The notes under the pieces were generated by a model. It made no database searches. It had not been told where the DNA came from and saw only the letters and a list, made by a program, of their open reading frames with translations. Positions 30,035-34,418 of a DNA stretch of 64,000 nucleotides are shown here, piece after piece. Source of the DNA: Alphaproteobacteria bacterium Ga0077535 (GTDB lineage: Bacteria > Pseudomonadota > Alphaproteobacteria > Caulobacterales > Aquidulcibacteraceae); the NCBI GenBank assembly GCA_001464425.1, contig LNEK01000032.1:1-64000 (forward strand), given 5' to 3'. Position 1 is the stretch's first letter. Each line of letters opens with the position of its first letter. Made by a program: the position numbers and the translations under genes.

Positions 30035-32242
30035 GTGACCGCAGCGACTCTCACCACCGCCCGCGAAACGCTTCAGCGCGTGTTCGGTCACAGCGACTTT
30101 CGCGGGTTGCAGAGCGAAGTCATCACCGAGGTGTTGGAAGGCCGCGACGTAATGGCGGTGCTGCCGACCGGCGGCGGCAAAAGCTTCTGCTACCAAATCC
30201 CCGCCATCCTGCGCCCCGGCGTCGGCCTCGTCGTCTCGCCGCTGATCGCGCTGATGCAAGATCAAGTAGCGGCGTTGCGCGCGGCCGGCGTGGCGGCGGC
30301 GCGGCTTGACTCAACGCTCGACCGCGAGGCGCGGCACCATTGGCTGTCGGCCGCACGCGAGGGACAGCTCGATCTACTTTACGTTTCGCCGGAAGGCTTG
30401 ATGGCGTCCGGCATGCTGGATTTCCTGCAGCAATGCCCGCTCGCGCTCATCGCCATCGACGAAGCGCACTGCGTGAGCCAATGGGGGCACGACTTCCGCC
30501 CCGACTATCGCGCGCTGGGCGCGTTAGCGGAACGGTTTCCAAACGTACCGCGCATGGCGGTAACGGCGACCGCGGACTTGAAGACGCAAGCCGACATCCG
30601 GACGCAGCTTAAACTCGAACATGCCAAGAGCTTCATCGACTCGTTCGATCGGCCAAATCTGGTGCTGGCGGCCGAACGCAAACCAGCGAAGGTGCAGGAT
30701 CGCATCCTCGACCTCGTGCGGGCTCGGCGCGGCAAGTCCGGCATCATCTATGCGGCGACGCGCGACAATGTTGAGAAGACAGCGGAGGGCCTGCAGCGGG
30801 CCGGCGTTCCCGCACTTGCCTATCATGCCGGCCTGGAGGCAGGCCTCCGCGCGGACCGGCAGCACAAATTTCAACAAGACGACGATGTCGTGATGGTAGC
30901 GACCATCGCCTTCGGCATGGGCGTCGATAAGCCCGACGTGCGTTACGTGATCCACGCCGACTCGCCGAAATCGATCGAGGCCTACTGGCAGGAAGTTGGG
31001 CGCGGCGGTCGCGACGGCGAAATGGCGGAAGGGTTTTGCATATACAGCGCTGCTGACCTTCGCCGCGCCGTAATGTTCGCCAATCAGGGCAATGCGAGCG
31101 AGCAGGTGCGCTCGGTGCAAATCAAGAAGGCGCGCCAGCTCTTTGCGTTCTTGGATGGCCTCACCTGTCGTCGCGCGGGCGTGCGACGCTATTTCGGCGA
31201 AGAGAACGCAGAACCTTGCGGCGCGTGCGATATCTGCACTGACCCGCCGATCTCGATTGACGCGACAGAACTCGCGGCCAAGGCGATTTCGGCCGTTATG
31301 CGTATGGACCAGCGCGTCGGGCGCGGTCGCGTTGTTGGCCACCTTATCGGCAAGACCGGCGATACGCTTGACGAACAATACGCGACGCGCACCACGTTCG
31401 GAATCGGCGCGGACCAGCACGAAAGCGTCTGGCGCGGCGTGATCGAACAATTGCTGTTCGACGGCGTGCTCAGCGAGGGCGATGATCAACGTCCTACACT
31501 GAGCATCGGCGACGAGGAAGCGGTTCGCGCGATCTTCCGCAAAGAGCGGCAGGTGCGCATGCGCGAAGCGGCGAAGCGGACGGGCAAAGAGGAGCGGCGC
31601 GCGACCCGCGGCGTTGAAAAAGCCGGCTTCAGCGGTGCGGATTCGCAACTCTTCGAGGCGCTACGCGTGTGGCGGCGAGAGACCGCACAAAACGCCAGCG
31701 TCCCGCCCTATGTCGTGTTCTCGGACGCTACGCTCGCGGGGATTGTGAAAGCCAAACCCGCTGACATGGCGGCGCTTGGGCGCGTGTCGGGCATCCGTCG
31801 TGATTGCGGGCTGCTGAGCCGCATTCAGTCTTGCTCTTCGAACACGCGCCGCGCGGCGGCCGGGCCTTCGCGTGCAAGATCAGCCGCTTGCTCCAGCCAT
31901 TCTTCTTCGTCGATACGCCCGCGCAAGCGCAGATACTGGTCGACCCAAGCGACGTGCTCAGGAGTCCACGCGGCGATCTGCTCGAAGTGGAAGACGCCGA
32001 GCGCATACAGCGTCGTTTGCTGCATTTGGCTAATGGACTCAATCAGCGTCAGGTCATCCGGCGCGCCGTTGCGTGGCGCGGCCAAAATTGGCGGTTTGGC
32101 GCGTCGCGTGGCTGGAAGCGCGGCGCGAATGGGTTCAGGCGACTTCTTCTCGGCGACGGCCTGCGCAATCGAGATCGGCGCGACGGTAAGGGCGACCGCG
32201 ATGGGACGTTGCTCGAGATGGCGCACCCGCGATTCCAGATAG
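30035..32242 (+). CDS. recQ: RecQ-family ATP-dependent DNA helicase with disrupted 3' end
   Basis: A 3'-5' DNA helicase of recombination and replication repair. I start at the in-frame GTG at 30035 (VTAATLTTARETLQRVFGH); the exact start is uncertain. Walker A is LPTGGGKSFCY, the DEAH box is AIDEAHCVSQWGHDFRPDYR, motif VI is QEVGRGGRDGE. The RQC zinc site is CRRAGVRRYFGEENAEPCGACDIC. The HRDC domain begins LFEALRVWRRETAQNASVPPYVVFSD and reaches GRVSGI near 31794. After that the frame leaves the family and runs about 440 bp antisense through the convergent gene. Another frame offers VVIAGC and a stop at 31817, so an out-of-frame deletion in HRDC is likely. Confidence 0.88.
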   Translation: MTAATLTTARETLQRVFGHSDFRGLQSEVITEVLEGRDVMAVLPTGGGKSFCYQIPAILRPGVGLVVSPLIALMQDQVAALRAAGVAAARLDSTLDREARHHWLSAAREGQLDLLYVSPEGLMASGMLDFLQQCPLALIAIDEAHCVSQWGHDFRPDYRALGALAERFPNVPRMAVTATADLKTQADIRTQLKLEHAKSFIDSFDRPNLVLAAERKPAKVQDRILDLVRARRGKSGIIYAATRDNVEKTAEGLQRAGVPALAYHAGLEAGLRADRQHKFQQDDDVVMVATIAFGMGVDKPDVRYVIHADSPKSIEAYWQEVGRGGRDGEMAEGFCIYSAADLRRAVMFANQGNASEQVRSVQIKKARQLFAFLDGLTCRRAGVRRYFGEENAEPCGACDICTDPPISIDATELAAKAISAVMRMDQRVGRGRVVGHLIGKTGDTLDEQYATRTTFGIGADQHESVWRGVIEQLLFDGVLSEGDDQRPTLSIGDEEAVRAIFRKERQVRMREAAKRTGKEERRATRGVEKAGFSGADSQLFEALRVWRRETAQNASVPPYVVFSDATLAGIVKAKPADMAALGRVSGIRRDCGLLSRIQSCSSNTRRAAAGPSRARSAACSSHSSSSIRPRKRRYWSTQATCSGVHAAICSKWKTPSAYSVVCCIWLMDSISVRSSGAPLRGAAKIGGLARRVAGSAARMGSGDFFSATACAIEIGATVRATAMGRCSRWRTRDSR

Positions 32243-33105
32243 CGCGCCCGCCACTTCCAACGATCCGGATCAGGCGCGGCCTCCTGCTCTGGCGCAGCCG
32301 AATGCGCGACTTGTTGAGGGCCTTGCGCGACTTGCGCCTGCAAGTGCGCGACGCGGCGCTCCAGATAGAGCAGCCGCCAGCGCAGAAGCACGTCAACGTC
32401 GGCATCGGCTGCAAACGGGGCCGCTTCTTCCATGGACGCAGACTCCGGCGCAGCGGCTGAAGAGAGAGCACGCAGTTCTTGCTCTAAGAACGCCGCGCGC
32501 GCTTGCGCCTCTCGCGCCTGCCACTCCGGTAACGGGGAAGACTCCTCCGTTGGAGCATCGGGGAATACGGCAATCGGCGCTTGTGCGTTACTTTCAAGAT
32601 AACGGACCCGCTGCTCAAAATAGCGAAGCCGCCATGCTTGCAGTGCAACCGCATCGTCGTCCACGACGGGCCGGATCTCAGCCTCAATTTCGCGAGCGCG
32701 TGTTTGCTCCAGAGACGCGCTCAACGTGCGCAGGCGCGCGAGTTCCTCGGTATTGGCGTCCACACCATCGAGTTGGCGGCGCAATTCGGCGGCTTCGGCG
32801 GAAGCGTCATTGGCGCGAGCCCTCGCCTGCTCCAACGAATGTTCGAGTTCAGCGATGCGGCTTTCGCGGATGCGGGTGAGGCTCGTTTCAGCCTCGGCGC
32901 GCGCCCGATCAGCGTCTGGATCCTGATTAGCGCTGCCCTCGCCTGCCGCGAGACGACCGAGATCTCGGACAAGGCGCTCGCGCTCGCGGCGCTGCGAAAG
33001 CCGGGCGGGCGCTGCGCGGTGCGCGGCGTACATCCATCCGGCGACGCCCATTGAAACTGCCGTTAGCAACAGCCAGACAGACAATTGTCCGATCAGATAA
33101 ACCAT
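31825..33105 (-). CDS. Membrane-anchored coiled-coil protein with degenerate HhH-like C-terminus
   Basis: A 426-aa protein. The N-terminal helix (LIGQLSVWLLLTAVSMGVAGWMY) anchors it. Residues about 35-145 are coiled coil. Three internal repeats follow a W-x-x-RY-(F/L)-E-x-RV-x-x-L pattern: WRLRYFEQRVRYLE, WRLLYLERRVAHLQ and WRARYLESRVRHLE, separated by Ala/Glu-rich linkers. The last 90 residues (DDLTLIESISQMQQTTLYAL, FHFEQIAAWTPEHVAWVDQY, LRLRGRIDEEEWLEQAADLA) match the helix-hairpin-helix domain often fused to alphaproteobacterial NuoE or L21, but the usual GIGP turn is replaced by ESISQM. It is the third gene of a three-gene envelope operon. Confidence 0.75.
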   Translation of the reverse strand: MVYLIGQLSVWLLLTAVSMGVAGWMYAAHRAAPARLSQRRERERLVRDLGRLAAGEGSANQDPDADRARAEAETSLTRIRESRIAELEHSLEQARARANDASAEAAELRRQLDGVDANTEELARLRTLSASLEQTRAREIEAEIRPVVDDDAVALQAWRLRYFEQRVRYLESNAQAPIAVFPDAPTEESSPLPEWQAREAQARAAFLEQELRALSSAAAPESASMEEAAPFAADADVDVLLRWRLLYLERRVAHLQAQVAQGPQQVAHSAAPEQEAAPDPDRWKWRARYLESRVRHLEQRPIAVALTVAPISIAQAVAEKKSPEPIRAALPATRRAKPPILAAPRNGAPDDLTLIESISQMQQTTLYALGVFHFEQIAAWTPEHVAWVDQYLRLRGRIDEEEWLEQAADLAREGPAAARRVFEEQD

Positions 33106-33114
33106 GATCGCGCC

Positions 33115-34239
33115 TCAGCTCGTGACATAGAACTCGATCCGACGGTTGATCGCTTGGCCAGCGGGCGTTGCGTTGCTGGCGCGGGGATTGTCTGGGCCGT
33201 AGCCGCGCGCGGTAAGCCGCGAACGCGACACGCCTTGCGCCGTCAGATAGCTTGCGACTGCATCCGCGCGCTGTCGCGACAACTGCATGTTGGGCTCGCG
33301 CCCGCCTTGGTTGTCGGTATGGCCAGCCACCTCGATGGAGAACCGGTCGCAGCGCAACGCGACGGACGCAAGGGCATCTAGCGTGCGGCGACTTGAAGGA
33401 TCGATAGCGGCGGAACCGGCTCGGAAGTTGACGACATTGCGTTCCATCAAGCGATCGAACGCGCGCTCGCACGTCTCCGCATCGCCACTGACCAGATTAA
33501 GCCCCTGTAGCTCCGGGTGCTCGACATCGAGCCCGTCCACAGTGACAGCAAGCCGCGCTCGGAACGGCGGCGGCGGGGACGCGAAGGCAGCGCGAACCGC
33601 GGCGACGCCTTCGGCGTCACCATCCCCGATCACGGCAACCTGAGTGTCTACAATGCGTGCTTCGCCGGATGCCAAGCGCGCGACAGAGCGGACCGCTTGC
33701 CGCGCCAACTCCCCGAATGCGAAAGACGGTGCGCCACCAGCGACCCGCATTTCGTCAACCGGATCGGCATTAGCAAAGGCGCCGCGTGCCGCCGCGATGA
33801 GTTCGCCGCGCACGTTCTCGCTGGGCACAGCTCCTGAGAGAATGACCCGCGCGCCGTCGCGGCGCACGCTCCAGGCATAAGGGCTCTCAATTTCACCGAC
33901 GCTAACGTTAGACACGTCAACCGCAATGACGCCGCCCTCCCAAGCGCCGCCGGGGCCAGCAGCCGTGAGCGCGGCGTGTTGAACAGTGGCGATATCGTCT
34001 TCGCTCTCGACGATGCCGTGCAGGATGGCGCGTTGGCCATCCATCTCAATATCGAGACCCGGGTTGCCACTGGCGGTGAGCGCGGCGCCAATGCGCTGCT
34101 CCAGCACTTGCGGCATCCGCCAGGCCGAGCCGTCGTGCGGCGCAGCCATGCCGAGCACCATGGCGATGAGCGCAAAGCCAGCGGCGATCACAGTGCCGAC
34201 CGGCACGCGGTCGGTGAGTTGAGGTTTAGACTCGCTCAT
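33115..34239 (-). CDS. BON and OmpA domain envelope protein
   Basis: A 374-aa protein with an uncleaved-looking N-terminal membrane helix (VGTVIAAGFALIAMVLGMAA, about 14-33), a BON-like domain (IGAALTASGNPGLDIEMDG, then HGIVESEDDIATVQHAAL, about 48-95), a second BON-like region near 125-160 (SVRRDGARVILSGAVPSEN), and a C-terminal OmpA domain (about 260-374) with VAGHTDNQGGREPNMQLSRQ and NRRIEFYVTS. The layout resembles mycobacterial ArfA (OmpATb). It likely links the membrane to peptidoglycan. Its ATG overlaps the stop of the small upstream gene and the next gene starts 9 bp after it. Confidence 0.87.
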   Translation of the reverse strand: MSESKPQLTDRVPVGTVIAAGFALIAMVLGMAAPHDGSAWRMPQVLEQRIGAALTASGNPGLDIEMDGQRAILHGIVESEDDIATVQHAALTAAGPGGAWEGGVIAVDVSNVSVGEIESPYAWSVRRDGARVILSGAVPSENVRGELIAAARGAFANADPVDEMRVAGGAPSFAFGELARQAVRSVARLASGEARIVDTQVAVIGDGDAEGVAAVRAAFASPPPPFRARLAVTVDGLDVEHPELQGLNLVSGDAETCERAFDRLMERNVVNFRAGSAAIDPSSRRTLDALASVALRCDRFSIEVAGHTDNQGGREPNMQLSRQRADAVASYLTAQGVSRSRLTARGYGPDNPRASNATPAGQAINRRIEFYVTS

Positions 34240-34418
34240 GAGCCGCGGGCGCGCCGGACTTGCGCGTCGGTCAGGTGGCGGCGCAATTCGTCGGTTTCGC
34301 GTTCGGCCTCGCGCACCCGCGCGGCAGCGACCATAGCGAAGATGCGCCAGCCGGCGGCGAAGCCAAACAGGCCCGCCGCGATGAACAAGATCACCTGGGA
34401 GAGTATGAGCCCGATCAT
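34236..34418 (-). CDS. Small single-helix membrane protein
   Basis: A 60-aa protein with one strong transmembrane helix (IGLILSQVILFIAAGLFGFAAGW) followed by a basic/acidic coiled-coil helix (RVREAERETDELRRHL). It is the first gene of the operon and overlaps the OmpA/BON gene by four bases. Small membrane partners of BON-OmpA proteins are known in mycobacteria (ArfB); that comparison is by layout only. Confidence 0.7.
   Translation of the reverse strand: MIGLILSQVILFIAAGLFGFAAGWRIFAMVAAARVREAERETDELRRHLTDAQVRRARGS

Follow-up and report, generated by a model that had tools for sequence, protein, structure and literature searches.

A conserved gene pair encoding an ArfA-type protein and a membrane-anchored HhH-domain protein: a candidate inner-membrane assembly in an alphaproteobacterial lineage

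Introduction

Three consecutive genes on the minus strand of a contig from the alphaproteobacterium Ga0077535, here called A, B and C (Table 1), encode proteins that each possess a single N-terminal transmembrane (TM) segment, and this raises the question of whether their products belong to one complex and, if so, what that complex might hold together. The window, that is, the whole stretch of DNA analysed, comprises 64,000 nucleotides (contig LNEK01000032.1). A first-pass annotation had read the locus as a three-gene envelope operon, a reading that would fall if the three were not conserved together in relatives; we therefore consider their conservation before turning to the individual proteins.

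Table 1. Coordinates of the A-B-C genes and of their predicted features in the window
Feature	Position	Strand	Residues or length	Description
Gene A	34236-34418	minus	60 aa	single TM
A TM helix	about 34412-34347	minus		
Gene B	33115-34239	minus	374 aa	TM-BON-BON-OmpA
B TM helix	about 34203-34135	minus		
B BON1	34104-33955	minus		
B BON2-like	33870-33772	minus		
B OmpA peptidoglycan-binding domain	33426-33142	minus		
Gene C	31825-33105	minus	426 aa	TM, coiled coil, W-repeats, C-terminal HhH domain
C N-terminal TM helix	33034..33099	minus	3-24	
C long helix/coiled coil	32680..32919	minus	63-142	from AlphaFold model
C W-repeat 1	32596..32634	minus	158-170	WRLRYFEQRVRYL; W158, 7/7 key residues
C degenerate W-repeat	32485..32523	minus	195-207	WQAREAQARAAFL; W195, 4/7 key residues
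C W-repeat 2	32341..32379	minus	243-255	WRLLYLERRVAHL; W243, 6/7 key residues, R replaced by L
C W-repeat 3	32215..32253	minus	285-297	WRARYLESRVRHL; W285, 7/7 key residues
C C-terminal HhH domain	31861..32061	minus	349-415	net charge -9; GxGP hairpin replaced by SIS

Results and discussion

Conservation of the trio and of the B-C pair

The genes overlap or abut, as the first-pass annotation had stated: A and B share 4 nt, and B and C are separated by 9 nt. A SpoU-type methyltransferase gene lies divergently upstream and recQ convergently downstream, with a glyoxalase-like gene and SAM methyltransferase genes completing the surrounding set. A promoter and terminator scan of A-B-C yielded no signal above the background expected by chance. 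The neighbouring recQ, on the plus strand, appears to be short of about 41 nt towards the 3' end when compared with its relatives (window 31790-31825), which shifts its frame and extends its ORF antisense into gene C; this loss could be a true mutation or an assembly error.

Within the genus, C is present in 26 of 29 genomes, the three without it being 57, 65 and 83% complete. B precedes C in all 26 of these loci, as it does in the window. A lies ahead of B in 25 of them, the remaining locus stopping at a contig edge. The same order, with a small TM gene ahead of B and C, recurs in six further genera of the family, the small gene matching A by tblastn in three and being assigned by position and hydropathy in the other three; the SpoU and SAM methyltransferase genes are divergent upstream in five of the six, and in the sixth the contig ends first. 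The phylogenetic survey of relatives thus shows joint conservation of the three genes and supports the operon proposed earlier.

Beyond the trio, B and C adjoin the same SpoU/SAM genes in a Hyphomonas-type locus in which the small TM gene was not seen. More broadly, a B-like BON/OmpA gene often lies directly upstream of a C-like gene whose product combines a TM segment with this HhH domain, as seen across 80 named loci and others: examples are Hyphomonas, Devosia, Cohaesibacter, Nitratireductor, Phreatobacter and Campylobacterales/Campylobacterota metagenome-assembled genomes (MAGs). The HhH domain occurs in 54 of 60 genomes of the family sample, nearly always as a single copy, and in most of these genomes a comparison of coordinates places an OmpA-family match close by, usually no more than about 1 kb away; three family genomes break this pattern, and elsewhere three TM-HhH genes have no B neighbour. 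On these sequence comparisons, we regard the B-C pair as older than the A-B-C trio. Three contigs binned outside Proteobacteria, as Campylobacterales/Campylobacterota MAGs in which binning errors or contamination are possible, also contain a B-C-like pair, and this occurrence suggests either transfer or great age. Among open-licence papers we found no description of the pair.

Gene B encodes an ArfA-type protein

B matches the Pfam BON (4.5e-6) and OmpA (3.9e-23) families, and the order of an N-terminal TM segment (from hydropathy), a BON region and a C-terminal OmpA domain is that of Rv0899/ArfA. This protein (2l26) ranks third among the solved-structure matches of B, with E=6.5e-18 over residues 123-372, which span both the BON and the OmpA parts. 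Hence, the resemblance to arfABC, earlier held to be one of layout only, extends to sequence in the case of B; for A and C the comparison was one of layout. The D...R peptidoglycan signature of the OmpA domain (a GHTD...LSxxRA-type pattern) is found in 27/27 genus loci, and B can be classified as an ArfA/Rv0899-type protein with an intact, predicted peptidoglycan-binding signature. The signature is eroded in several Hyphomonas-type loci that keep the B-C adjacency, six of which have an OmpA domain without the usual peptidoglycan-binding residues next to C; wall binding is therefore not universal to the pair.

This retention of the pair where the signature is lost would suit a reading in which A, B and C are merely co-transcribed and act separately. 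We hold this to be rather improbable, as the adjacency survives changed surroundings across families and, partly, across phyla. It might also be argued that the locus is an ArfABC-like stress operon, with B acting as ArfA does in acid adaptation or ammonia release and A and C as the counterparts of ArfB and ArfC. The TM-BON-OmpA architecture common to B and Rv0899 favors this, as do the reviewed links of the ompATb operon to ammonia secretion in acid and of Rv0899-like proteins to nitrogen-metabolising bacteria (PMC3816664). However, the coiled coil, W-repeats and HhH domain of C are without counterpart in the descriptions of ArfB and ArfC consulted, the gene order differs in that a small TM gene comes first, and the mechanism of ArfA itself is disputed, all of which make such an equivalence unlikely.

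Topology and the origin of A

OmpA-type domains are usually periplasmic, and on this ground and by its charge distribution B should have its N-terminus inside and its C-terminal part in the periplasm. The TM segments of A and C start at residue 2-3 and are followed by Arg-rich sequence, including the tail of A, so that by the distribution of positive-inside charges both proteins should have cytoplasmic C-terminal tails. Thus, of the matching topology that had been claimed for the three proteins, the single N-terminal TM segment of each stands, but B would face the periplasm and A and C the cytoplasm. By profile comparison, A is similar to the N-terminal part of C (hhalign probability 91%, with a single-template E-value and the risk of over-reading that attends hydrophobic segments), which makes it plausible that A was derived from a duplicated fragment of C. 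A LapA-domain identity for A and C was dropped, since its E-values of 0.06-0.8 fail the cut-off.

The W-repeats of C are predicted to form a lineage-specific helical array

A Pfam search recovered no family for C. Scored against the pattern W-x-x-RY-x-E-x-RV-x-x-L, with seven key residues, C contains the three repeats earlier reported, at W158, W243 and W285, together with a degenerate fourth at W195 that had been overlooked. Not one of 20,000 shuffles of C reached three sites with at least 5/7 key residues, and a search of the 3.96-Mb genome with a nucleotide pattern of the core found exactly three sites, all within C, with zero matches for the control; by this exact pattern, no other protein of the genome carries the repeat. 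Across the genus, 78 full repeats were collected with a search pattern that fixes W and some positions and allows alternatives at others: W, R, E and R are invariant at positions 1, 2, 7 and 9, and position 5 is Y in 77 of the 78 and F once. The linkers between repeats vary, while the core WR..Y.E.R persists. In the loci examined, the repeats are confined to C proteins of this order.

Beyond the coiled coil, the AlphaFold model of C (mean pLDDT 75, pTM 0.28) has four discrete helices (150-175, 194-216, 235-260 and 280-299) with linkers of low confidence between them, and it ends in a confident C-terminal domain. Each W-repeat falls within one of these helices, the degenerate one within 194-216. 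A fold search with full-length C gave nothing with E<1, the matches being coiled-coil noise. The W-repeat is a clear and conserved candidate binding site.

One could envision a role for such a protein in a cell-division, growth-zone or polarity complex, with B on septal or new wall and the repeats of C recruiting a cytoskeletal protein. Peptidoglycan binding combined with a multivalent cytoplasmic scaffold is the layout that one would expect of such a complex, and the restriction of the W-repeats to this order would be in keeping with it. Nevertheless, division genes are absent from the recQ, glyoxalase-like, SpoU and SAM methyltransferase neighbourhood, and we consider this role, too, to be unlikely.

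The C-terminal domain is a widespread alphaproteobacterial HhH module

The C-terminal domain of C matches, over its whole length, the profile of the HhH domain fused to diverse alphaproteobacterial proteins (PRK12278/PRK12373/protein-O type). It recovers the C-terminal extensions of the NuoE, L21, S2 and PhaH NCBIfam models (3.4e-24 to 3.4e-11), protein-O of Dinoroseobacter shibae (8yy9; E=1.6e-28, or 2.4e-33 by domain profile) and, by profile, 9wqv (6.5e-33), with eL32, RadA, DNA polymerase IV and NusA at marginal E-values. The isolated domain is predicted at pLDDT 93.8 (85 homologues); its nearest folds are those of NusA acidic repeat 2 (AR2), all with E>1 and TM-scores of about 0.5-0.6 that do not establish homology. 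Rather than an orphan, the domain is, by these matches, a known, widespread and uncharacterised alphaproteobacterial module. The protein-O paper, whose map did not show the domain, described its function as obscure (PMC12079452). In nuo operons of the Rhodobacteraceae type (seven loci with a TM-HhH protein of the protein-O or '41 kd complex I subunit' type), the TM protein with this domain adjoins nuoE, and NuoE often carries the domain too. Some C-like proteins have two or more copies of it, one of these proteins reaching 1241 aa.

The GxGP hairpin is the usual backbone-contact turn of HhH domains. The first-pass annotation had recognized an HhH-type C-terminus lacking this turn, and both observations are borne out: membership of the HhH superfamily is confirmed, and GxGP is absent from 25/25 same-genus sequences that reach the domain, with SIS or GVS in its place. 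The turn is present in nearly all relatives outside the genus, and its loss is derived and genus-specific within an evident homologue. The source genome has one copy of the domain, that in C; we rejected single-copy status as the cause of the loss because related single-copy genera retain GIGP or GVGP.

DNA-binding HhH proteins combine a GxG hairpin with a non-acidic contact surface. The domain of C, with its altered turn and its net negative charge, departs from both features, which speaks against a nucleic-acid-binding domain that would tether the chromosome, or else ribosomes, at the envelope. RadA, DNA polymerase IV and ribosomal eL32 among its profile relatives, and its fusion to ribosomal L21 and S2 elsewhere, would be consistent with such a tether, which we nonetheless regard as very improbable.

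A proposed wall-to-cytoplasm assembly

We propose, at a level of confidence that leaves the matter evenly poised, that A, B and C constitute one inner-membrane assembly of a peptidoglycan-anchored B, a cytoplasmic docking arm C and an accessory A. B would be anchored by its TM helix, its two BON modules reaching towards the peptidoglycan that its OmpA domain is predicted to grip. C would likewise be held by one TM helix, with its coiled coil projecting into the cytoplasm and, past it, three to four short helices of the W-R-x-R-Y-L-E-x-R-V type, separated by flexible linkers, which may bind protein partners; the small acidic HhH domain at its end probably binds protein rather than DNA. B and C are predicted to be in physical contact, and A, resembling the TM segment of C, may have an accessory or regulatory role in the complex that is particular to this lineage. 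With B on the wall and C in the cytoplasm, the pair would connect the wall with a multivalent docking arm on the cytoplasmic side.

In support of a single assembly, we count the adjacency of B and C across relatives, the intact signature of B, the conserved W-core and the presence of the HhH domain on the membrane protein-O of the RC-LH1 complex (PMC12079452); that NusA AR2 was solved bound to the protein SuhB lends weak support to a protein-binding HhH domain. Against it, we count the eroded B signatures, the fold matches with E>1, the promoter and terminator scan at background level and the TM-HhH genes without B.

More generally, a domain whose function is recorded in print as obscure, and which is known from complex I, from a subunit of a photosystem and from proteins of the ribosome, recurs beside an ArfA-like protein predicted to bind peptidoglycan. 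This recurrence makes B a testable candidate partner for the domain and, conversely, C a conserved candidate cytoplasmic partner for ArfA-like proteins, with genomes such as this one, which have a single HhH copy, offering the simplest setting in which to test the link. As a long shot, the domain might be a general alphaproteobacterial docking tag, with the B-C pair as its original wall-anchored platform, to which proteins of complex I, the photosystem, the ribosome and storage granules became attached later by acquiring the domain; the present lineage would instead have evolved the W-repeat helices as new binding sites.

Comparison with known systems

The closest system on the side of B is ArfA/OmpATb (Rv0899, PDB 2L26), which shares the TM anchor, BON module and OmpA-type peptidoglycan-binding domain, and whose operon likewise encodes other membrane proteins. 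It differs in that B precedes a gene for a TM-coiled coil-HhH protein and has no known link to acid or ammonia here. Further, arfA is the first gene of the ArfABC operon, whereas B is the second of its trio, after the small TM gene; A and C were set against ArfB and ArfC by layout.

On the side of C, protein-O of the D. shibae RC-LH1 complex (PDB 8YY9) has a comparable membrane-anchored N-terminus, flexible linker and HhH C-terminus. In contrast to C, its membrane part is a helix-turn-helix and its gene lies between nuoE and nuoF; a BON-OmpA neighbour was not reported and its function is unknown (PMC12079452). NusA acidic repeat 2 (PDB 1WCN, 6IB8) offers a similar small HhH fold, though as a weak match with E>1. 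NuoE (NF009040/PRK12373), L21 (PRK12278), S2 (PRK12311) and the phasin PhaH (NF045508) present the same C-terminal domain as C on different host proteins.
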